Below, in pieces: positions 2,045-18,695 of a stretch of 64,000 nt of DNA (positions are counted from its first letter, which is position 1; each line of letters starts with the position of its first letter). Position numbers and translations under genes: made by a program. Below the pieces are notes generated by a model that was not told where the DNA came from, did no database searches, and saw only the letters and a program-made list of their open reading frames with translations. Origin of the DNA: Rikenellaceae bacterium (GTDB lineage Bacteria > Bacteroidota > Bacteroidia > Bacteroidales > UBA932); the NCBI GenBank assembly GCA_022766385.1, contig JALEPJ010000056.1, positions 117,356-181,355 of the forward strand, in the 5' to 3' direction.

Positions 2045-2653
2045 ATGAAGACTATCATTGCAAAGGAGCTTCTATCTATCAAGGCGGTTTTTCTCCGTCC
2101 TGATGAGCCGTTCACTTGGGCCAGCGGAATCAAGAGCCCTATCTACTGTGACAACAGACTCACACTTTCTTCACCTTCAGTAAGATCCAAGATTGAGGCC
2201 GGACTATCTCAGTTGATATTGCAGCATTTTCCTGATTGTGAAATGCTTATGGGAACATCTACAGCCGGAATCGCTCACGCTGCCATAACGGCAACCATAC
2301 TGAACCTTCCAATGGGTTATGTTCGCAGCAGCGCAAAGGACCACGGTCGCAGCAACCGTATTGAGGGCAGAATGGAGCCCGGTACCAAGGTTGTGGTTGT
2401 AGAGGATCTCATCTCTACGGGAGGCAGTTGCATCGAGGTGGTAGAAGCTTTGCGTGAAGCGGGAGCTGAGGTTCTCGGAATAGTCAGCATCTTCACCTAC
2501 GGACTGAAAAAGGGCTTAGACCGCATTGCCGCTGCGAATACAGTAAATTATTCATTGTCAGACCTTGACGCACTTGTAGATATCGCAGTCAAGGAGAATT
2601 ATATCACTGACGAGCAAAAAGAAACGGTTCTAAAGTTTAGAGATAGTCTATGA
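2045..2653 (+). CDS. pyrE: orotate phosphoribosyltransferase
   Basis: [16 protein letters not shown] motif [21 protein letters not shown]. Confidence 0.95.
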
Positions 2654-3738
2654 AACACTTGATTGACCCTACCGATCTCACTCTGGTTGAGACCAATAAT
2701 ATAATTGCTCTTGCCGAGGAAATCATTGCGCATCCCGAGTATTATACTGCCAGAATGAAAGGCAAGAAACTCGCCACCCTTTTCTACGAGCCAAGTACAA
2801 GGACAAGGCTCAGTTTCACCACGGCAATGATGGAGCTTGGAGGCAACGTTCTGGGCTTCTCGGACCCCAGAAACTCGTCTGTCAGCAAGGGTGAAACCAT
2901 GCAGGATACAGTGAGGGTAATGGGCTGCTTCGCAGACATCATTGCCATCAGACACAACATCGAAGGAGCTCCTCTCGCAGCAGCGGAAGTATCCAAGGTG
3001 CCTATCATCAATGCCGGTGACGGCAGTCACGCCCATCCGACCCAGACACTTACCGACCTTTTGACCATCAAAAGGGAAATAGGTCATTTGGACAATATCA
3101 CCATAGGCTTCTGCGGAGACCTTCGCTTCGGACGAACAGTTCATTCTCTAATCAAGGCGCTTGCAAGGTATGAAGGCAATAAAGTAATCCTCATTGCTCC
3201 GGATGACCTTCGTCTGCCGGACTATATCAGGAATGACGAGGACCTTAACAGGAGACTGGAATTCAGAGAAGTCCAGACTATGGAAGAGGTTATGCCTGAA
3301 CTTGACATCCTTTATATGACACGTGTTCAACAGGAGCGTTTCCTCGATCAGGACGAGTTTGACAGAGTCAAGGACAGTTTCGTACTGACACTTGACAAGC
3401 TCAAGACTGCAAAGGAGAAAATGGCCATCCTTCACCCATTGCCACGTGTAAACGAAATACTTCAGGAAGTGGACAGCGATCCGCGCGCTGCATATTTCCG
3501 TCAGGTTGAAAGCGGTAAGTTTGTAAGAATGGCCCTTCTGAGCCGGCTAATTGATTGGAAAAACGACCCGGCCCACGAGCTGGCAGCAAGGGATGAAATG
3601 GAGGCAGATGAGGCACAAAAGTACCATTGTACCAATGCAAACTGCATCTGCAACCGCGAGCCGGTTAGACGTCGTATCAAACTTCACGCAGACGGGACAG
3701 TAAGATGTCTCTACTGCGATGCAAAAGCAAAATTATAG
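2650..3738 (+). CDS. pyrB: aspartate carbamoyltransferase catalytic chain with C-terminal PyrI-like zinc-binding domain
   Basis: [40 protein letters not shown]; extra C-terminus [30 protein letters not shown] resembles the PyrI zinc domain. Confidence 0.95.
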
Positions 3739-7218: not shown

Positions 7219-8817
7219 TCAATAAATCAGCTTCATATCGTCAACCCATAGGGTGCTGGATGCAGAGCCTGTGAAATAATCACCATACTTGCTTGCCGCA
7301 CAAGAGATAATGATATGGGTAGGTACTTTGGACCGGCTTCTGTAATCAAGCGGTATCGTGATTTCCTCCCAACCATCACTGCTCTTGTCGCTTTCGAAGA
7401 CTCCATAGGCTATAACATCCTCTGAAGCAGGATTGAAGAAGCTGCTTCTATCAGTTGTATTTACCTGGACAGGGCATTCAGGAGTACCACCGTATTTACG
7501 GTAATCCCAACAACCTAAGGCAATGAAGACCTGGCACTTATCATCATCTCCCATACGTACAGTTTCGGAATCAGGGAAAGAGTTGATGTAATCGATCTTG
7601 CCTGACTTGTACTTAAGTGAGAGTTTCAAGGCCTGAGGACGAGCAGTAAACGGACGGCCGAAGTTGACCTTTCCGCCTTGGATTCCTACCAGACCTCCGA
7701 ATTCTCCGGAGAACATATTGCCTGCAGCAAACTTGATGACAACATACCGTGAGTCCATACGGGAAGAGGCCTCGCCCTCCGCTTTCTCATCCGTATCTGG
7801 CATACAGATAGAATAGCTTGAGCCTACCGTAGTAGAACCGTAATTTCCGCTGTCCCACCATTTTTTGTTCCAAAGCATAGATTCAGGGTCATAGAAGGAG
7901 TAATAGTTCTGGGACTCGCATTTTGAATAGACTTCAAAGCCTGCATTAGGTATAGGAAGTTCCTCGCCAGTAGTAAACTCTTCGCTCAGAGTCTCATTAT
8001 TGCCGCTATAGGCTATGCACTCATATGTCGTTTGAGGCTCAAGGCCATCAATTCCAGCCGTAAAAGTACCTCCATCGGAGCTTATGGATGCTGCATCTAC
8101 TTCAATCCATTCCTGGTCGCCCTTCAAACGGTATCTGAAGCCATTGTCCGAGCCTTCAATGCCGGTAGCAGTGAGCCATGCTATACGCGTCCAAGCATCA
8201 ACGGAAACCCAATCTACAAGGGTCTCACTCCTGTCGACATACAATGTCCATTGCTCAGTTCTGCCGTGATAGGTGATACTGACTTCTACAGGTTCTGAGA
8301 AGTCAACCGGGCCATTGAATACCCTTGAGTATTCGGTAATGTCACGTGGACCGAGTTTCAAGGAGTTGACGCTGATCCATGAAAGCGAGATACGGGGACT
8401 GACATAGGCTATTGCCCTTCTGTTCCGTTCATCTATTACCGACTTGCCGACCTGGCCGGAGACCGTGAAATATCTTTCAATATTCTGTTCCGCGGCAATG
8501 GTCCAGGTATAATCCTGATATGTCCTGACATTGAACTCGAATGGCTGCGAAAGGTCAATGGATACAGGGAAGCTCTCTGTCAACTTGGACAAATCATCCT
8601 TGAAACTCGGTTCCCCGATTTTTACAGCCGTAATATCCGTGACTTCATCCAAAACAACCCTTACGGTATGAGTACTTTGGTCAATTACAACAGACTCTGC
8701 CCCTTCCACTTCAAGGCTTTCCATTACGGGCTCGATCACCGGCAATGGAAGGTCGTTCTCGATGCAGGAAACAAGGAGAAAACAAAAGCACAGAAGTGTG
8801 AAAAATCTTTCCGTCAT
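7219..8817 (-). CDS. surface lipoprotein with C-terminal PCMD-like domain
   Basis: Lipobox LLVSC; C-terminal NAGFEVYSK..KWWDSGN..AAGNMFSGEFGG..KVNFGRPFTARP..LWVDDMKLIY, paralogous to the C-terminus of 10307..12112. Confidence 0.75.
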   Translation of the reverse strand: MTERFFTLLCFCFLLVSCIENDLPLPVIEPVMESLEVEGAESVVIDQSTHTVRVVLDEVTDITAVKIGEPSFKDDLSKLTESFPVSIDLSQPFEFNVRTYQDYTWTIAAEQNIERYFTVSGQVGKSVIDERNRRAIAYVSPRISLSWISVNSLKLGPRDITEYSRVFNGPVDFSEPVEVSITYHGRTEQWTLYVDRSETLVDWVSVDAWTRIAWLTATGIEGSDNGFRYRLKGDQEWIEVDAASISSDGGTFTAGIDGLEPQTTYECIAYSGNNETLSEEFTTGEELPIPNAGFEVYSKCESQNYYSFYDPESMLWNKKWWDSGNYGSTTVGSSYSICMPDTDEKAEGEASSRMDSRYVVIKFAAGNMFSGEFGGLVGIQGGKVNFGRPFTARPQALKLSLKYKSGKIDYINSFPDSETVRMGDDDKCQVFIALGCWDYRKYGGTPECPVQVNTTDRSSFFNPASEDVIAYGVFESDKSSDGWEEITIPLDYRSRSKVPTHIIISCAASKYGDYFTGSASSTLWVDDMKLIY

Positions 8818-8820
8818 AGT

Positions 8821-9552
8821 TTACAATTGAATTGAGATACCATAGACAAGACCAAGAGGATTGCCCTTGAGCATACTCTGAAAACGGGTACGTCCACCTG
8901 TCACTTCACCCTTGTCAATAAGTCTCAAATTTGTATATGACAGCGTGGCGATGTTAAGTCCCACGTGTACTGCAACATTGTCAAGGACATACATCATAAA
9001 GCCTGGAGTAAAATCAAAGCTCAACTTATAGCCATTCATATAAGACTCGGAAGGTTTTTCGGGATAAAACTCCAATCTGTTCTCGGAATAGCCAAAAGCA
9101 GTATCATAATAGAGTCCGAAACGCCCGAGACGGTCCAGGCCGGTAAACCATCTGTGGAAAAGCTCGAAGCCTGAAGAACTATAACCGGCGCGAACATTGT
9201 CAAATTTCATCTGAAGACCTTCGTTCAAAAGGTCAACAACGGCCGACTGCCCGCTAAGATCCGCTGAAAGATACTTGATGCTCAGGCCGATTGCCCTATC
9301 CTTTGCATATGAGTAGGACACAAAAGGGTTGAGTCTGGTCAAATGGCCTGACATGTCCAAACCGTTAAGGAAAAGGAGCAGTTCAGCATTTGTTGAGCTC
9401 AATGATTGATGCATGAATGAAGCTCCGGCCTGAATGCCCCCCTTATCCATAAAAGGGAAAGTCTTGAAGACCCTCAAAGAATCACGGTCAATCGCCTGAA
9501 GAGAGAGACAGGCAAATGCCCCTATGAGTATTGCAATCGTTTTCTTCTTCAT
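8821..9552 (-). CDS. putative outer-membrane beta-barrel protein, function unknown
   Basis: Signal peptide MKKKTIAILIGAFACLSLQA; alternating amphipathic segments, C-terminal aromatic/hydrophobic strand; operon context. Confidence 0.6.
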   Translation of the reverse strand: MKKKTIAILIGAFACLSLQAIDRDSLRVFKTFPFMDKGGIQAGASFMHQSLSSTNAELLLFLNGLDMSGHLTRLNPFVSYSYAKDRAIGLSIKYLSADLSGQSAVVDLLNEGLQMKFDNVRAGYSSSGFELFHRWFTGLDRLGRFGLYYDTAFGYSENRLEFYPEKPSESYMNGYKLSFDFTPGFMMYVLDNVAVHVGLNIATLSYTNLRLIDKGEVTGGRTRFQSMLKGNPLGLVYGISIQL

Positions 9553-9556
9553 AAGG

Positions 9557-10303
9557 CTATAGATAATAATAAAGGCCGAGCTTCAATGATAAAACATCAA
9601 TATTGTAACTGAAATCCGAGCTTTTCAGGGAGCCGGAATTCACCTGATTGTGACTCTGGCTTGTCGAATTGAAGCCTGCATTCAGAACATTCAACGAAGC
9701 TTCCAGACCGAAATGCTTGTTGAGCAGCACTACGCCACCGGCATTGACACCCAGGGAAGCTCCCTTGTTTGTGGAATATGTACCTACTACGTTGCCATCT
9801 CTGAGGCAGTGTATTTTTGACTGCCCACCATTACCGCTCAATTGCATCTCGACAAACAGGGCGAGTCTTCCGGCGTGATCCACAGGAATATAGTTCCTCA
9901 GGAACAAGGCGGCAGAGTAATCGTGTTTGAGTATGCAGTAGTCCTTCCAGTCCAACTCGTTCCCTGCCACACCAATAGATAAAGAATTGATATCCACATT
10001 GTTACGAGAGTAGTTAATTCTTACCCCAGCAGCAATATTGTCCTTTATGATATATCCGAAACTTGGAGAAACGCTGACTTTGAAACCGTTGGAATCAAAG
10101 TCCTTCAAAGCTGATAAAGAGAGCTTGTCGTTCTCGTGTAAGGAATACTCTGCGCTGCCGCCAAGAAACCAGCTGCCTTTGGGCGCAAAGACCATAGCAT
10201 TCCTGCTTTTATTGAAATAGCCCCGGTCAATGTTCTGTGCACCGGCACTTATGCTTAAACACAGAGCAATTGCTGAAGCGATAATGACTCTTTTTCCACG
10301 CAT
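9557..10303 (-). CDS. putative outer-membrane beta-barrel protein, function unknown
   Basis: Signal peptide ending AGAQ; repeated amphipathic beta segments, C-terminal LSLKLGLYYYL. Confidence 0.6.
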   Translation of the reverse strand: MRGKRVIIASAIALCLSISAGAQNIDRGYFNKSRNAMVFAPKGSWFLGGSAEYSLHENDKLSLSALKDFDSNGFKVSVSPSFGYIIKDNIAAGVRINYSRNNVDINSLSIGVAGNELDWKDYCILKHDYSAALFLRNYIPVDHAGRLALFVEMQLSGNGGQSKIHCLRDGNVVGTYSTNKGASLGVNAGGVVLLNKHFGLEASLNVLNAGFNSTSQSHNQVNSGSLKSSDFSYNIDVLSLKLGLYYYL

Positions 10304-10306
10304 ACA

Positions 10307-12112
10307 TTATTCATAGATTAGTTCAATCTCGTCAAGCCAGAGTATACTGCTGCTTGAGCCGACAAAGTAATCACCATAGATACTTGCTGCAGCTGAGAAC
10401 ACTATATATGTAGGATACTCCGTTTCTGACTTGTAAGTCAGAGGAACTGTAACCTTGGTCCAGCTTCCCTCGGAGCCATTGCCCTGAACCGTGAGCTGAC
10501 CATAGGCGATGGTGCCGTCTATAGTGTCATAGTCCCAGAATGTGGACTTATCACTTGTATTGACCTGGATAGGAGAATTCCTGCTTCCACCATATACCCT
10601 GTAATCCCAGGTGCCCACTGTACACTTGATTTGGCAACGGTCATAGTCACTGGTTGTGAGAGGGTTATCTGAAGGACCACCTGCCTTGTCTACCTTGCCA
10701 CCCTTGTATTTGTACCAGAAGCTGACTGCGGTAGGGCGTGAGCTCCAAGGCCTTCCGAAGTTAACCTTTCCGTTCAAACCGTCAAGACCTGCGAACTCAC
10801 CGCTGAAGAGGTTGCCGGCTGCAAGTTTGCCCGCAGCAGAAATAGAGGTGAGTTTTGCCGATTTGCTTGAGCCTGTGCCTGAAGGCACATCAGTGTCAGA
10901 GTAGCATATTGCATACTTGGATCCGAGCATTCCAGCTGATGCAGAACTACCATTGTCCCACCACTTGGTCCTGACTGTAGGGTCAGAAGCAGATGGGTCA
11001 TAGAATGAAATCCAATTGGAGCTCTCATCGTTGCTGGTATATTCAAAGCGTGAATTCGGCATCTGAGGTGCAGAATCAGTAGTGAAAGTCATAGGAGAGC
11101 CTATTACCTCACCGGCAATGACGAGTTTGTAGCTGTAGGTGGTAGAAGGGTCGAGATCTTCTGCAACTGCCACGTAGCTGCCATCGCCAACACGCTGAGC
11201 GCTGATATCTGTCCAAGAGACACCATCGGCGCTATATGAGATAACGATGCTTGATGGATCCGGGTACTCGCTCTCATCGACATCCGCATGAAGTGTGGCA
11301 TGTCCTGCCCATATCTCATAACCCGCTGATTTAGAAAGACCTGTCGATACTGGTTCAAAGACAATCAAATCGTCAATATCCTCGAGGCTGTCATCAACAT
11401 TGACAGAGAATCCTAATAGGCCGTCAGTCACTGAATAGCTGAGTGTCATTCTGTAGGTCTTGCCTCCGCTAACATTCTTGATTTCGCCGCTCTTTTCGAT
11501 TGACTTACCATTCTTCAGGCTTCCTTTGAAGGTCCAGCTGAGGCTGCCGTCATTGCCCGGAATGATAAAATAGCCGTTCCGTCCGCTTTTATCAGCAGTA
11601 TAGACGAGCTGTGATGTGGCCTCGCTGCCGCTTCCTATGGTGAAGGTATAGCCGCTGGCGAAATTGCTGGCGACGGACTGGTCAAAAGTGATAGCCGTAA
11701 CGGCATTGCATACTCTGGCGACTACTTTGACGGAAGTATTGACCCCTTCACTTACCTGGAAGGGAGTCGAACCGCTATAGCTCTTCTGGTCCCACGAAGC
11801 CATTGCAGGTGAAGATTTTGCTATTTCACCAGCTTCAACATCCACCCTGTAACTATCTGCAGGCAGATAGATGGTGCCGGGAATATTGGAGTACTTGTAT
11901 GACCTGATCAGGCCGGAAAAATCGCCCATATAGATTTTGACATTGGCACTGGAAAGAAGTTCGTCGGATGACATTGCCTTCGTCTGCATCTGGGCATCGA
12001 ACTCAAGATCAAGCGAGAATACTCCGAGACTGTCCTTATCCTTCAGTTCCAACTGGCAGGATGTAAATGTCAGAGCAAGAATTGCTGTTAAGAAAATGAT
12101 TGAATGTTTCAT
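10307..12112 (-). CDS. lipoprotein with DUF4493-like N-terminus and PCMD-like C-terminus
   Basis: Lipobox LTFTSC; ETKAMS-type N-terminal region; C-terminus NSRFEYTSN..KWWDNGS..AAGNLFSGEFAG..KVNFGRPWSSRP..LWLDEIELIYE. Confidence 0.72.
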   Translation of the reverse strand: MKHSIIFLTAILALTFTSCQLELKDKDSLGVFSLDLEFDAQMQTKAMSSDELLSSANVKIYMGDFSGLIRSYKYSNIPGTIYLPADSYRVDVEAGEIAKSSPAMASWDQKSYSGSTPFQVSEGVNTSVKVVARVCNAVTAITFDQSVASNFASGYTFTIGSGSEATSQLVYTADKSGRNGYFIIPGNDGSLSWTFKGSLKNGKSIEKSGEIKNVSGGKTYRMTLSYSVTDGLLGFSVNVDDSLEDIDDLIVFEPVSTGLSKSAGYEIWAGHATLHADVDESEYPDPSSIVISYSADGVSWTDISAQRVGDGSYVAVAEDLDPSTTYSYKLVIAGEVIGSPMTFTTDSAPQMPNSRFEYTSNDESSNWISFYDPSASDPTVRTKWWDNGSSASAGMLGSKYAICYSDTDVPSGTGSSKSAKLTSISAAGKLAAGNLFSGEFAGLDGLNGKVNFGRPWSSRPTAVSFWYKYKGGKVDKAGGPSDNPLTTSDYDRCQIKCTVGTWDYRVYGGSRNSPIQVNTSDKSTFWDYDTIDGTIAYGQLTVQGNGSEGSWTKVTVPLTYKSETEYPTYIVFSAAASIYGDYFVGSSSSILWLDEIELIYE

Positions 12113-12121
12113 TGCTCCTCC

Positions 12122-13363
12122 TTATTTGACAGTCATTACAATAGGAATTTCCTTCTTGCAGCCCTGCTGGTCGGTAACCTTCATAATGAAAGTATGATCG
12201 CCAGGGAAGGCCAGCAGCGGCTCCTGAGCATCGCTCAAATCGAAATCGATGACATCCTTGTCGTAAACGTCATTGCCATAAGGGAAAGGCAATATGCTTG
12301 AGAACACCTGCTGCGCTCCTGCGGATGGATTGACAAGATCAAGCACGGTCTGTCCGTCATTGATTGATGCTACCGAAGAGGCAAAAGTCTCGCTCGTAGT
12401 GCGTATCTCGACCTCGAACTTCTTCACTCTGTTCGGGATTGTTGCCCTCATAGTGAGGACAAAGGACTGTGACAATGAAGGAACGGCAATAGGAGCAGTG
12501 ATGTCGTAAGAGCAGGTTGACTCGAGACTGATGCCGCCGTCTCCTGCAGGAGCAGAAGGGTCCGAGCCGATTATGGTCTCGGTAGTTGGGATCGAATTGC
12601 TGAGATCCTCGTCTGAGACAAAATCATTGATAACGATATCGAAAGTAGCATTACCCTCAATATCAAGCTTTTTAGTGAAGGTAATGTGTCTCCATTGCCT
12701 TTCCTGGATGCCTGTGAAGGTACGTGTCATTCTCTGGATCTTGCCCTCAATGGAGCCCTTGTAGCTTATTTCCATCGTTGTATTGGAACCGTTGTTTACA
12801 GCGAAGTAGCCTGACCTGGACTCGTAGCTGTTGCTGCTGCCGGAATGCTTGAGTGCAAACTCCAATGGATTGCCTGCAGTTACTGTAACTGTAGTGGCTC
12901 CATCTCCTGTCACCATAGAAAGGAATTCATCAGTGTATCCGACACTTACCTTGCACTGAGCAAGAGTACAAGTAATGTTGCCCACGTCTGTGGTCTTTCC
13001 TGCTGTGATGGTAAAATCCTTGATAGCTCTGTAGACTGGCTGTTCAAAGGCAGCGGCAGGGACATCATACGAGCTTGAACGGGCCTCGAGGCTGTATTCG
13101 CCCGCAGGAAGGCTGACGCTGTTCCCATTGCTCTTGATATCAGCGTAGGTGGTATTGAGCTGTTCTGTTCCGGAAGCATCCCTGATTATTATGCAGAAGC
13201 TGCCGTCGGCTGCGGATGTTGCCTTGGTAATGAGTTCATCGTCCATTGACAGGGTGCAAGCGTCAAATGAAAGTGTTCCTTCCTTAGAGAGAGGTTCAGA
13301 AGGATTTTCGCACGCTGCAAACACTAAGGCAGCGGCTGTTAAAAGTATATATCTTGTCTTCAT
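12122..13363 (-). CDS. DUF4493-like lipoprotein
   Basis: Lipobox VFAAC; LPAGEYSLEARSS..AAFEQPVYRAIKDFTITAGKTTDVGNITCTLAQCKVSV pattern shared with neighbouring lipoproteins. Confidence 0.65.
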   Translation of the reverse strand: MKTRYILLTAAALVFAACENPSEPLSKEGTLSFDACTLSMDDELITKATSAADGSFCIIIRDASGTEQLNTTYADIKSNGNSVSLPAGEYSLEARSSSYDVPAAAFEQPVYRAIKDFTITAGKTTDVGNITCTLAQCKVSVGYTDEFLSMVTGDGATTVTVTAGNPLEFALKHSGSSNSYESRSGYFAVNNGSNTTMEISYKGSIEGKIQRMTRTFTGIQERQWRHITFTKKLDIEGNATFDIVINDFVSDEDLSNSIPTTETIIGSDPSAPAGDGGISLESTCSYDITAPIAVPSLSQSFVLTMRATIPNRVKKFEVEIRTTSETFASSVASINDGQTVLDLVNPSAGAQQVFSSILPFPYGNDVYDKDVIDFDLSDAQEPLLAFPGDHTFIMKVTDQQGCKKEIPIVMTVK

Positions 13364-13366
13364 TTT

Positions 13367-14095
13367 CTATTTGTTCAAATCAATATTGCCCAAATCAACT
13401 GTCTCGGTAGTGTCGTCGAAGCTGATGGTGATTGAGCTGCCGCCAACAGAGTTCACATCGAAACTCAGAGTATAGCAGCAGGCCTCTGAAAGATTTGTGT
13501 ATTCCTTTGTAAAATTGGACTTTACGCCATTCTGGTTGGTCATTTCACCGCTTACTGTGAATTTATAGGCATCCAGAAAAGCCGCCCTGCTCTCCCCTTT
13601 CGGGAAGTCAATGACATTGCCTGCACCGGTAGTGATGGTGAAAGAGTAATCAGTGAAATAATTCTCGAAATTATTCGAACAGCTTACTCTGACGAGGCAA
13701 TTGGTCAATGAAACAGGTATTGTCACCTGATGACTGCCCGCTTCGGCAATTGAAAACTGCTTGCTGCCGCTGAAACTCGGCTTCCCAAAGCCTTCCTCCG
13801 TATTGGAACCATAAGTGGCAGTAACGGTATAGGAGCCGGAGACAAGAGGCATTGAGGGGTTCCAATCAGAAGCCTGACCTGACCAGATCAGTCCTGAGTT
13901 TGAATCATTAAGCTGAAGATTGAAATCGGAAGCAGAAGGCAGGGATGCGTAGTCAGAGACCTTGCTCTTGGTCATATCCCTTACTTCGTCTTTCTGTTCC
14001 ATAATGAAGTCCACATAGCCCTCCGGCAGTGATCTGTCGCAGGACAGCGCCAGGAGAATGAGGATTGATGTGGATAAGACTTGTCTTATTTTCAT
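13367..14095 (-). CDS. DUF4493-like lipoprotein
   Basis: Lipobox LLALSC; LVSGSYTVTATYGS..FGKPSFSGSKQFSIAEAGSHQVTIPVSLTNCLVRV pattern. Confidence 0.65.
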   Translation of the reverse strand: MKIRQVLSTSILILLALSCDRSLPEGYVDFIMEQKDEVRDMTKSKVSDYASLPSASDFNLQLNDSNSGLIWSGQASDWNPSMPLVSGSYTVTATYGSNTEEGFGKPSFSGSKQFSIAEAGSHQVTIPVSLTNCLVRVSCSNNFENYFTDYSFTITTGAGNVIDFPKGESRAAFLDAYKFTVSGEMTNQNGVKSNFTKEYTNLSEACCYTLSFDVNSVGGSSITISFDDTTETVDLGNIDLNK

Positions 14096-14114
14096 ATTGT
14101 AATACTTTTATTTG

Positions 14115-15926
14115 TCAATTATTTGCTGAAACCCTTACTTTGACATTATCGATATAGAACCAGGCGGTTGTGTTGTGTGTACCTGCCTGATGCTCGATAA
14201 CAGTCCTCCATGTAATGCGGTTCGTGCTTCCGGCCGGGAAGTCATCAATGGTCATAGTAATTGAATTCGGCAGATTTGTATATGAGCCGGTGTACTCCTT
14301 GATATAGAAGCTATTGCCATTCTGGAAGACTCCGCTTTCATCACCGCTTTTGTAAGCCTCGGTCGATGTGACATAACCCAAATGAAGAGTCTGTCCAACA
14401 TCTCCGTTGGTTATGATGGAGATACCACCATACTTATTGTTCGCGCCATAATCAAAGCTTACGTCAATGCTGACGGCTTTCTTGATGGTGAAAACCGGCT
14501 TTGAATCCACTCTGGCATTGTAATCTGAAGAAGTCTCCCTTCTGCAAGCTATTCTGATACTCTCGCCTTTAGACGCGCCTATGCGTCCTCCAGTCCAACC
14601 ATCAAGGAAAGAAACAGCGTTTTTTGAACCTGCGCTGGATGTGGTATAGTTGTCATTTGAGCTGAAACTCTCAACGCCTGAGAAATCTTCAAACAGCAGC
14701 CAAGGAACATTCAAGCTGACATCTGCGGAAGTACCTGAAGAGGTATCCGGAATGGTTAGAATCTCTTGGGAAATGACGTGTTCAGAATCATAAGTAACAG
14801 TAATCGTGGCATTTGAAAGAGATCTGTATGCAGCCTCATTCTCCATTTCCACGACGAAACTGTCTCCAGCCTTGAAAGCAGTCTGGGAACTGATGGTGTA
14901 GACATTGCTGCCACTGCCCCAATCGCAACCCTCAGGTGCAGTCAGAGTGACAGTCCCAACATCCTCTCCAAGATTATTTGAGGCAATTCTGAATTCAATA
15001 CTGTAAAGTTCGGAAACACCCTGAGGTTCCAACTTGACAGACGTCGCATGCCCAGGGGCAAAAAACCTTGCCTGCAGGTCAATAGGATCAAGCACCGAAA
15101 CTCCACTCTTGGAGTAGAGTTTCACCTTCAGGGCTTCACCTTCAGTGAACTGTGTAGGAAAGAAAAGGGCATAGGCATATATGCGCGAAGACAGTCCCGA
15201 AACGGTCAGGGGCTCATCCAATTCGAGAGTTATTCTGTTGCTGCCCTCTGTCAGGATTGCCGAGTCAAAGTCAGTAACATCAAGCGAAAGCTTTCCAACC
15301 ACATTGCGCGGAAACTCCAGCTCAATCTTCTGTACGCCTTCAGTTCCGAAACTGTCCTCTCCGTAAGGAAGGAAGAAGCGGAAAGCATGCATCAGATGGT
15401 TCATACCCACCTTCATTGAAACATAGCCGTCAGTCTGTGAAAGAGGCAGGAGTTCAGTATAGGATTGTGGGCTTGAGAGCATAATGTCCTCCCCTCCTGC
15501 AGCCTTGCCGTGCTGTACCGAAGGAATATTGAACACAGCATTGCTTGAACTGAAAGATTCAGGGTAGGGATAAGTAACATAATAGGTATATGACCCGGGA
15601 GTCATTGCCTCGGACAAGCGTGATGTAAAAACACCCTTGTCAGCAGTACTGCCATATAGGCAGAATCTCTGCGCTTCCAGAGAATAATTGCTTCCTGATT
15701 CAGCCCATAAAGCTATTTCATCACCTTCACACCACCTGACACTGGTTCCGTTTGAATCAAGATATGACTTCGTCGCGTCGCTGTCTATACTCAAACCGAT
15801 GATAAGCGGCTCATCTTCACAGATTTCTGCCTTTGTTATTTCTGCCGTACATGATGAGGCGGCCAACATTAGAAAGCAAGGCCCCAGTACACTGTTCAAG
15901 AAAAAGTTCTTCATTATACTTTGCAT
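14115..15926 (-). CDS. fimbrillin-like lipoprotein with C-terminal beta-sandwich domain
   Basis: Lipobox AASSC; VRWCEGDEIALWAESG..FTSRLSEAMTPGSYTYYVTYPYP.. (fimbrillin-like N-terminus); C-terminal DFSGVESF...WFYIDNVKVRV. An alternative start at 15914 is possible. Confidence 0.6.
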   Translation of the reverse strand: MQSIMKNFFLNSVLGPCFLMLAASSCTAEITKAEICEDEPLIIGLSIDSDATKSYLDSNGTSVRWCEGDEIALWAESGSNYSLEAQRFCLYGSTADKGVFTSRLSEAMTPGSYTYYVTYPYPESFSSSNAVFNIPSVQHGKAAGGEDIMLSSPQSYTELLPLSQTDGYVSMKVGMNHLMHAFRFFLPYGEDSFGTEGVQKIELEFPRNVVGKLSLDVTDFDSAILTEGSNRITLELDEPLTVSGLSSRIYAYALFFPTQFTEGEALKVKLYSKSGVSVLDPIDLQARFFAPGHATSVKLEPQGVSELYSIEFRIASNNLGEDVGTVTLTAPEGCDWGSGSNVYTISSQTAFKAGDSFVVEMENEAAYRSLSNATITVTYDSEHVISQEILTIPDTSSGTSADVSLNVPWLLFEDFSGVESFSSNDNYTTSSAGSKNAVSFLDGWTGGRIGASKGESIRIACRRETSSDYNARVDSKPVFTIKKAVSIDVSFDYGANNKYGGISIITNGDVGQTLHLGYVTSTEAYKSGDESGVFQNGNSFYIKEYTGSYTNLPNSITMTIDDFPAGSTNRITWRTVIEHQAGTHNTTAWFYIDNVKVRVSANN

Positions 15927-16003: not shown

Positions 16004-16465
16004 ATGGAAAGGACACTTGTTATTTTGAAACCCGGAGCTATACAGAGAGGAATAGCCGGTGAAATTATAGCCAGAATCGAGAAAAGAGGCTTGAAAATCA
16101 TTGCAATGAAAATGGCACAGTTAACACCTGAAATCTGTAAGGTGCATTATGCCCACCTTCTTGAGAAGCCATTCTATCCTTGGCTGGAAGCGGGAATGAC
16201 GGCAGGTCCTGTGGTCCTGATGTGCGTAGAGGGTTGTGATGCCGTTCACGTAGTTCACGAGATGGCTGGCGCGACCAATGGCAGAAAGGCAGCACCGGGT
16301 ACCATACGTGGAGACTATTGTCTAAGCGCCCAGGAAAATGTAGTTCATACTTCAGACAGTCTTGAGACAGCGGAGAAGGAACTCAAGCGTTTCTTCAAAG
16401 AAGAGGACTATTGTCCATACAGCAGTCCCCTCACTCCATTCCTCTATGCTCCTGACGAAGTATAG
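16004..16465 (+). CDS. ndk: nucleoside diphosphate kinase
   Basis: ERTLVILKPGAIQRG; PGTIRGDYC; NVVHTSDSLETAEKEL (active-site His). Confidence 0.96.
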   Translation: MERTLVILKPGAIQRGIAGEIIARIEKRGLKIIAMKMAQLTPEICKVHYAHLLEKPFYPWLEAGMTAGPVVLMCVEGCDAVHVVHEMAGATNGRKAAPGTIRGDYCLSAQENVVHTSDSLETAEKELKRFFKEEDYCPYSSPLTPFLYAPDEV

Positions 16466-16479
16466 ATGGAGTAGGATAC

Positions 16480-18108
16480 TCACTTCGCTTCTCCGGATTT
16501 CTTATCCTTGTACAGGAAGCGTTTGATTTTCAAGGTGGCAGTCTTGGCGAAAGGTTCTTTCTCGACTTCCACCTCTTTTATTTTGCTGCTCTTGTTCACA
16601 TGGGAATTGACAAACTCCAGTATCTCCTGCTTCTTCTTCTCGAGTTCATAAAGGAATTTGTCCTGGTTTTCAGTGTTCCAGTCAAGCACATTGTCATCGA
16701 AATGCACAAGCGCGACGAGGCGTCCTCCTCTCTCAACGACTATTGACTCATTTATACCGTCAATATTATTGATAACGCTCTCAATCTCCTCAGGATAAAT
16801 ATTCTCGCCTGAAGGACCAAGTATCATATTGCCAAGTCTGCCTTTGATAAAGTAGCGGCCCTTCTTGTCAACGGCAGCCAGATCTCCGGTGTGGAACCAG
16901 CCGTCCGAGGTCATCACTTCCAGAGTACGATAGTAGTCCTTGTAATATCCTCTCATTACATTGTCACCCTTGACTACAAGTTCACCTTCCCCGGTCTCAG
17001 GATCAATGTTGTCCAACTTCACCTGAACACCGTAAGCAGGAGTGCCTGTAGAGCCTACTCTGGTCTTGAACGGAGCCGCCCCACAGATAAGAGGAGCTGT
17101 TTCAGTCAATCCGTAACCAATGGCATAAGGGAATCTGGCCTTGCCGAGGAAATATTCAACTTCGGAGTCCAGTTTAGCACCGCCTATACCAAAGAATTTC
17201 ATTCTGCCTCCGAAAGTCTTCTTCAATTTCATTCCGACCAGCCAATACAGAAGGGTCGGACTGAATTTCTTTAAGGAAGTAAGGAAATGGCTTTTGGCAA
17301 TGGTCGGAACCACACTCGACTTATAAATCTTCTCAATGACCAGAGGTACAGAGAGCATAGCGGTCGGACGCACCGCCTTTAAGGTAGGGATAAGCACGGA
17401 AGGAGTAGGTGCCTTTTGCAAATAGCAAACCTTCGCTCCTACCGAGAACGGATAAAGCATTCCTATGCTGAGTTCATAAGTATGGGCAAGTGGCAATATT
17501 GAAAGAAAGACATCCTTTCTGCCAACCTTGTGCGTATGCCAGGCTTCCAGGATATTCGCACATAGATTCTTATGGCTGAGCATCACTCCCTTTGCAGAGC
17601 CGGTAGTACCTGAAGTATATATGAGGGCGGAAATATCATCCGGTTGCGGATTGTTGATCTTTCCGTCGCAAGTATATGCCTCGTCATTTGCTCTGAGAAC
17701 ACTGAGGTCATCAGTAGCAATTACAATATGCATTTTCTCAAGTATGTCTTCCGGAACGCGGGAATAAAGCTTCTTTGAAACAAAGAGCGCCTTGCTATCC
17801 GAATGGGTCAGGATGTTCCTGATCTCATTTTCAGAAAGCTCGGTAAGCATAGGCACCACAATGCGGCCGAATGCCACTATGGAAAAGAATGCCACTGACC
17901 AGTTCGGCATATTCTGAGAGAAAAGGCCAACCTTGTCGTATGGATTGATTCCGAAATTTGCTAGATTCTTTGAGAGTCTGCGGCAAACATCTCCGAATTC
18001 GGCATAACTATAGTCCTGACCTTCTCCATACTCATAGGCAGGTCTTTTGGAGTACTTGTCAATCGAATGATGGAATACTTCCGAAAGTGTTTGGAAATCG
18101 TGTTTCAT
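16480..18108 (-). CDS. AMP-dependent synthetase / long-chain acyl-CoA ligase
   Basis: YTSGTTGSAKGVMLSHKN; GYGLTETAPLI; DGWFHTGDLA; KTATLKIKRF. Confidence 0.93.
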   Translation of the reverse strand: MKHDFQTLSEVFHHSIDKYSKRPAYEYGEGQDYSYAEFGDVCRRLSKNLANFGINPYDKVGLFSQNMPNWSVAFFSIVAFGRIVVPMLTELSENEIRNILTHSDSKALFVSKKLYSRVPEDILEKMHIVIATDDLSVLRANDEAYTCDGKINNPQPDDISALIYTSGTTGSAKGVMLSHKNLCANILEAWHTHKVGRKDVFLSILPLAHTYELSIGMLYPFSVGAKVCYLQKAPTPSVLIPTLKAVRPTAMLSVPLVIEKIYKSSVVPTIAKSHFLTSLKKFSPTLLYWLVGMKLKKTFGGRMKFFGIGGAKLDSEVEYFLGKARFPYAIGYGLTETAPLICGAAPFKTRVGSTGTPAYGVQVKLDNIDPETGEGELVVKGDNVMRGYYKDYYRTLEVMTSDGWFHTGDLAAVDKKGRYFIKGRLGNMILGPSGENIYPEEIESVINNIDGINESIVVERGGRLVALVHFDDNVLDWNTENQDKFLYELEKKKQEILEFVNSHVNKSSKIKEVEVEKEPFAKTATLKIKRFLYKDKKSGEAK

Positions 18109-18695
18109 CAGTGTGTAATATAGTTTTCTGGATGTTTGCCTACAAGATGCATTTCCTCATATATGGCCTGAATACGCTTCATATCTGCACGCGGGTCGTC
18201 TGTAAGTTCAATCTTCTCTCCCCTGCTGACAGTCTTGGTTCCCCAATCAAAAAAGCCCAGATATACAGGCAGTCCAGTCTCCCTTGCAATCAGATGGAAA
18301 CCCGTTTTCCAATTCTTGACGGGCTTTCTGGTGCCTTCAGGAGCAATGGCAAGGCAGAAGTTGTCGCTCTTCTCAATTTCCTCTATGAGGCTCTTCAGCA
18401 TAGCCGCAGAATTTTTCCTGTCGACAGGGATTGCTCCCATAGCCCTCAGAATCCAGCCAAGCGGAGGAAAGAAAAGCTCCTTCTTTACCATACAGCGGGC
18501 ATCTCCACCTACTGATTGATAATAGAGGTATGATATCACAAAGTCCCAGATGGAAGTATGAGGTACTCCCAGGATCAAATATTTAGGGTCATCAGGCGTA
18601 GGTGCTCCAGCCTTCCAACCCAACGCTTTCAACAAAAAGGCGCAGAATTTTCTCCACATAAGCAAAATAAGGTCGAAAAAGACAAATATAGACAA
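18108..18695 (-). CDS. 1-acyl-sn-glycerol-3-phosphate acyltransferase (PlsC-like)
   Basis: VPHTSIWDF (HxxxxD variant), FPPLGWILRAMGAIPVDR, IAPEGTR motifs. Confidence 0.88.
   Translation of the reverse strand: MSIFVFFDLILLMWRKFCAFLLKALGWKAGAPTPDDPKYLILGVPHTSIWDFVISYLYYQSVGGDARCMVKKELFFPPLGWILRAMGAIPVDRKNSAAMLKSLIEEIEKSDNFCLAIAPEGTRKPVKNWKTGFHLIARETGLPVYLGFFDWGTKTVSRGEKIELTDDPRADMKRIQAIYEEMHLVGKHPENYITH

Follow-up and report, generated by a model that had tools for sequence, protein, structure and literature searches.

What might a bacterium build from five lipoproteins and two small outer-membrane barrels that are encoded side by side? The question is raised by seven open reading frames (ORFs), g7 to g1, on the minus strand at positions 7219-15926 of a 64,000-nucleotide (nt) stretch of a Rikenellaceae contig (GenBank JALEPJ010000056.1), the whole of which is called the window here. 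We lean, by a little, toward one operon for a surface adhesion or glycan-binding complex, in which type V pilin-like lipoproteins (g4-g7) would be combined with two paralogous barrels (g3, barrel A; g2, barrel B) and a docking lipoprotein (g1) that resembles a surface glycan-binding protein (SGBP). What was computed is the content and conserved order of the genes, their co-occurrence and predicted folds, the enrichment of a motif, the conservation of a binding site, and signs of an exchange in place; from them we infer surface display, cleavage, assembly, contact between barrels and lipoproteins, and a ligand. A preliminary description of the window had proposed an adhesive or glycan-binding assembly, with which the domain content agrees; the binding of lipoproteins to barrels and a ligand outside the cell belong to the inferred part.

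Such an operon unites three elements that are normally apart, pilin-like lipoproteins, SGBP-like lectins and small outer-membrane barrels, and it makes directly testable the idea that an adhesin built on fimbrillins can have its base within the membrane. It is present in named Bacteroides, Phocaeicola, Barnesiella and Odoribacter, all well-known gut genera, and in named Coprobacter, Muribaculaceae and Rikenellaceae; cultured strains that carry it include B. finegoldii DSM 17565 and B. clarus YIT 12056. Among 5.39 million open-access papers no description of the locus was found, in agreement with the undescribed system that had been suspected. That literature yielded no mention of the DUF4493 or PCMD family name, and among open-access papers containing both "type V pil" and "barrel", none describes such a locus in its title or abstract. 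The operon is probably an unstudied means for gut Bacteroidales to hold sugars or surfaces.

A gene order that recurs around barrel A

The seven ORFs proved to lie where they had been placed, with gaps, from g7 to g1, of 19, 3, 9, 3, 4 and 3 nt, and clear lipoboxes are seen in the five lipoproteins g1, g4, g5, g6 and g7. Relatives were sought with g2 in 60 genomes of the same family, with an alignment of g3 in 295 genomes of the order, and in a collection of named genomes, from which the best 80 of at least 539 confirmed relatives were kept. The fetched loci were annotated with custom-built profiles, and removal of duplicates left 105 distinct barrel-A loci. A PCMD lipoprotein is encoded downstream in the same run in 99 of them, barrel B directly follows barrel A in 84, and DUF4493 lies upstream in 75; since the loci were selected by barrel A, these fractions describe its neighbourhood and not that of all PCMD or DUF4493 genes. 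Median gaps between the common gene pairs of the 105 loci are 1-24 nt. With D for DUF4493, P for PCMD, A and B for the barrels and 7 for the g7 type, the most frequent orders are DP-D-DP-A-B-P, which is that of Bacteroides, Phocaeicola and Barnesiella, 7-D-D-DP-A-B-P, seen in the window and some relatives, and A-B-P by itself, seen in many Muribaculaceae.

Across the 295 Bacteroidales genomes PCMD is common (138) and DUF4493 rare (34). Of these genomes, 24 have both barrel A and DUF4493, 1 has only the barrel, 10 have only DUF4493 and 260 have neither (Fisher p = 2.7e-26, in a test that treats related genomes as independent). In one genome (G196) the set is divided between contigs, with the DUF4493 trio on one and the A-B-P trio on another, and both trios are retained. 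That surface genes without any connection came to lie together by accident is refuted by the co-occurrence and by an order kept over many Bacteroidales families, and we give it practically no weight. The preliminary description had taken these genes for one surface system of several components, equipped with barrel partners of its own, and had named a lack of co-occurrence across genomes as the finding that would speak against it; the genes do co-occur, and about 100 other loci show their order again.

Distant Bacteroidales (L093, L095) and a member of another order (L184) have a two-gene barrel-PCMD pair; judged from these sequences, it looks like the ancestral core. Six loci (L072, L077, L083, L097, L102 and L129) contain additional DUF4493 genes 3' of the PCMD gene, which suggests an expansion of the pilin-like part.

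Pilin-like lipoproteins

Pfam detects DUF4493 in g4 (E 8.5e-39), g5 (8.9e-34) and g6 (7.4e-41), in agreement with the earlier assignment. The genes of the lipoproteins had been described correctly; what had been overlooked is the predicted fold of DUF4493 and the SGBP-like build of g1. When an AlphaFold2 model of g6 (pLDDT 80, pTM 0.71) was compared with the PDB by Foldseek, 14 of the 16 best matches were Bacteroides adhesins or pilins or Mfa2 (E 1e-7 to 5e-5). The closest solved structures include Bacteroides pilins and DUF1812/Mfa2-type anchors, members of the fimbrillin superfamily, as well as Mfa2 of Porphyromonas gingivalis (hits among them 3gf8, E 1.1e-7; 3pay; 4gpv; 5nfi, E 1.3e-5). DUF4493 models with a type V pilin fold, similar to that of the Mfa2/FimB anchors. 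The remaining protein, g7, has no significant Pfam match of its own but is fimbrillin-like through its relatives, as had been supposed: Mfa_like_1 is found in 2 of 10 homologues (best E 4.4e-13), and the g7 profile matches 4k4k, a putative cell adhesion protein (E 4.5e-4). Given a fimbrillin-like fold of DUF4493, four of the five lipoproteins (g4-g7) count as pilin-like, with g4 and g7 as head-like and g5 and g6 as anchor-like subunits. No homology was found between the C-terminal part of g7 and PCMD.

Cleavage of type V pre-pilins occurs after a basic residue that lies between strands one and two. A candidate site of this kind, TKA in g4 and g5 and TKS in g6 and g7, follows the lipid cysteine in all four pilin-like proteins and is absent from g1; the TKS of g6 falls inside a low-confidence loop of the model. 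The lipobox pattern seen in g4-g7 is present in 103 of 110 DUF4493 and 109 of 124 DUF4493+PCMD homologues. At 10-70 residues past the lipid cysteine, T[KR][AST] occurs in 48 of the former 103 and 51 of the latter 109, whereas background windows contain it in 8-10% of cases and g1-type proteins in 11 of 107; the enrichment in the DUF4493 family is 4-5 fold, in a tally that counts related sequences repeatedly. Elsewhere, the source genome has a gene for a C11 (clostripain-family) peptidase.

Type V pili, as defined in PMC12632263 and PMC11316588 (FimA-E and Mfa1-5 of P. gingivalis and the Bacteroides fimbrillins), are assembled from lipoprotein pre-pilins whose N terminus is processed by a surface protease. 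The operon resembles them in its lipoprotein subunits, in the predicted fimbrillin fold, in a candidate site with a basic and a small residue after the first strand, and in putative heads with an extra C-terminal domain. It differs in that its subunits are DUF4493 and not FimA, Mfa1 or Mfa2 by Pfam, except g7 through its relatives, and in having a lysine site, two outer-membrane barrels, an SGBP-like protein and no obvious stalk subunit; moreover, a separate fimbrillin-like gene cluster is present elsewhere in the source genome. By analogy, g4-g7 would be lipidated, delivered to the outer membrane and displayed on its outer face. At least some of them would then be cut at T[KR][AS] after the first strand, opening a groove for strand exchange of the fimbrillin kind and giving a short fibre or oligomer. 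Ligand binding would be the task of two heads, g4 through the PCMD jelly-roll and, probably, g7 through the additional domain at its C terminus.

The repeated counting of related sequences in the motif enrichment weighs against this picture, as do several other points. The site residue is lysine in all four window proteins and not the arginine of FimA and Mfa1, and no clear repeated stalk subunit is seen among the operon genes. TM-scores between the g6 model and pilins in the Foldseek comparison are moderate (0.37-0.50); thus, the evidence for the fold is good and descent from fimbrillins is unproven. Direct profile homology between DUF4493 and g7 was rejected, the profile-profile match being weak and including the signal peptide. 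Finally, many Muribaculaceae loci and L089 have no DUF4493 beside A-B-P, so that the barrel-PCMD part is able to exist alone.

The source genome contains further genes of these families. A fourth, stand-alone DUF4493 lipoprotein is fused to DUF6359 (L040:8725-9819). The separate fimbrillin-like genes form a pair on contig C9 (L179:1348-3128), the first of which scores slightly less than Pfam requires for FimA and for Mfa2; the pair is possibly a canonical type V pilus locus. A stand-alone Mfa_like_1 protein of about 350 residues on contig C28 (L176) exceeds the curated cut-off.

Lectin-like PCMD proteins and a proposed barrel base

The earlier PCMD assignments also hold: Pfam finds the domain in g1 (E 5.6e-38, 131.4 bits) and g4 (E 5.7e-32, 111.8 bits), far above the PF13201 gathering cut-off of 28. 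The PCMD part of g4 matches PDB entries 4jrl, 3hbz and 4het, and by profile that of g1 matches 3hbz (BT2081) and its relatives. With BT2081 they share the jelly-roll, the conserved aromatic pocket and the calcium-site Asp (PMC2954218); here, however, PCMD is fused to DUF4493 (g4) or to Ig-Ig-FN3 (g1) and accompanied by barrels. Of the BT2081 pocket, the four strictly conserved aromatics (F202, F206, Y261 and F340) are retained in the g1 family consensus, together with Asn149, Asn200, Asp338 and the calcium-site Asp351, whereas the candidate catalytic residues Asp259 and Arg290 (PMC2954218) are replaced by Q and E, respectively. This pattern speaks for binding more than for hydrolysis in the g1 family. 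That the PCMD proteins are glycoside hydrolases and the operon degradative is thus very improbable, even though PDB entries bear the name "putative glycoside hydrolase": the deposited name is itself putative, the BT2081 paper leaves enzyme and binder undecided (PMC2954218), and the candidate catalytic residues, unlike the aromatics of the binding pocket, are lost from the family consensus.

Over its N-terminal half, the g1 profile aligns to the levan SGBP (8a9y/8aa0/8aa2, E 7e-6), and after the lipid cysteine the family has a motif, C[IL]xND[IL]PYP, that reads CIENDLPLP in the window g1. By sequence, g1 is built like an SGBP such as BT1761 of the levan SusCD utilisome, with a lipid anchor, two Ig-like domains and a C-terminal domain of glycan-binding type, in which PCMD replaces the levan domain. 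Since the lipidated Ig-like domain of the levan SGBP rests on the lip of SusC (PMC7618045), g1 may likewise be seated on the barrels through its own, carrying a second PCMD lectin, with barrels A and B as the membrane base. Unlike the utilisome, the operon has no SusC, SusD or glycoside hydrolase, and its small barrels are not known as TonB-dependent.

The same domains would suit a SusCD-independent glycan-capture complex without a fibre, in which glycan-binding lipoproteins clustered on the barrels feed a transporter encoded elsewhere and the fimbrillin fold is only a stalk. We regard this as possible but doubtful. Besides the PCMD and SGBP-like domains, it would account for the location of BT2081 paralogues in SusC loci (PMC2954218), for the occurrence of the barrel-PCMD pair, seemingly the oldest core, without DUF4493, and for a SusC/SusD-like pair that lies outside the operon in G034, about 240 nt past it on the same strand (L025:2664-7345). 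However, the operon contains no gene for SusC, SusD or a carbohydrate enzyme, either as it stands in the window or as typed in the gene runs of the surveyed loci, and the cleavage-like site is enriched in the DUF4493 proteins only and not in g1. The lack of SusC/SusD in the operon, which had been noted before and is borne out by Pfam, also led to rejection of a SusCD locus.

The barrels themselves are paralogues, evidently ancient ones: their profiles align with an hhalign E of 1.3e-56, and in a tree of 101 rows the A rows form one group with support 100/100, apart from a row labelled L029_A, which is the second barrel of its locus and of B type. This grouping implies that the A/B duplication predates the split of the sampled Bacteroidales families. 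Pfam gives a weak OMP_b-brl_2 match for g3 and no significant match for g2. The AlphaFold2 model of g3 (mean pLDDT 91) consists of eight long strands in antiparallel arrangement, together with a signal helix and a short segment at the N terminus, and its nearest solved folds include OmpA, OmpW, OprG and Ail. To these g3 is similar in size and predicted strand number; no sequence relation to them was detected, and barrel A differs in being nearly always paired with PCMD lipoproteins and in its conserved N-terminal DRG..PKG segment (family motif [F/I]DRG..F[IV]PKG.W..G). The g3 model, the OmpA/OmpW-like folds and the A-B match rule out soluble or unrelated barrels, which had been named as a possible refutation. 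The barrels of the preliminary description therefore stand; their paralogy, the narrow eight-stranded form modelled for g3 and the apparent in-place exchange within the genus, described below, had been missed.

Because barrels are nearly always encoded with lipoproteins, they might be dedicated Slam-like exporters or folding aids that flip the operon lipoproteins to the surface and stay outside the final complex. Slam combines an N-terminal TPR domain with a larger C-terminal barrel. In contrast, the g3 model has eight strands and a short N-terminal segment only, with no TPR or POTRA domain, and a barrel so narrow is unlikely to be a protein-conducting pore. An exporter role thus appears improbable.

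Probable exchange at a fixed site and neighbouring genes

Over much of the family an acyltransferase gene is found near the locus (Table 1). Three congeners (G023, G042 and G059; loci L036, L037 and L039) have a different operon type beside it, DP-D-DP-A-P, one with a further D. The acyltransferase of the window is 67-71% identical to those of the congeners; for its operon proteins, identity is only 23-34% with the congeners and 29-50% with genus g16 (L025). In the g1 tree the window groups with L025 and L026, and a clade with the congeners is rejected (p-AU 5e-47), whereas in the tree of the acyltransferase the window branches on the side of the congeners (99/99). Replacement of the operon in place, at a fixed chromosomal site, is the simplest reading of these sequences; differently sorted old alleles would also fit the conflict between the trees. 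Such an exchange among related bacteria hints at selection exerted by the host, by phage or by the glycan environment. A bolder proposal, which we consider rather unlikely, is a type V pilin-like system with its own outer-membrane-integral assembly base, formed by the two small barrels and the docking lipoprotein, and swapped among species at one chromosomal position in the manner of an antigen locus. We know of no such base in any described type V pilus.

Table 1. Operon genes and other features of the window
Feature	Position	Strand	Description	Lipobox	Site
g7	14115-15926	-	lipoprotein, N-terminal part fimbrillin-like; C-terminal region ends with FYIDNVKV segment; alternative, perhaps real, start ATG at 15914	ASSC	ATKS
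g6	13367-14095	-	lipoprotein, DUF4493 only; fimbrillin-fold model	LALSC	MTKS
g5	12122-13363	-	DUF4493 lipoprotein with C-terminal domain of ~150 residues	FAAC	ITKA
g4	10307-12112	-	lipoprotein, DUF4493 + PCMD jelly-roll; putative lectin-headed subunit	FTSC	QTKA
g3	9557-10303	-	barrel A; modelled 8-stranded outer-membrane beta-barrel		
g2	8821-9552	-	barrel B; g3 paralogue		
g1	7219-8817	-	SGBP-like lipoprotein, Ig-Ig-FN3-PCMD	LVSC	none
NDK-like gene	16004-16465		upstream neighbour, divergent; named from sequence		
Acyltransferase gene	18108-18695				
Fused ORF	2650-3738		362 residues		

An NCBIfam scan gave no meaningful match and an Rfam scan tRNA only. A promoter and terminator scan did no better than chance level, and no confident promoter was identifiable 5' of g7. 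The operon is flanked upstream by the NDK-like gene and downstream by a gene for a type III glutamine synthetase. Elsewhere in the window, the fused ORF carries the catalytic domains of aspartate carbamoyltransferase together with the regulatory chain's zinc-binding domain (PyrI_C).

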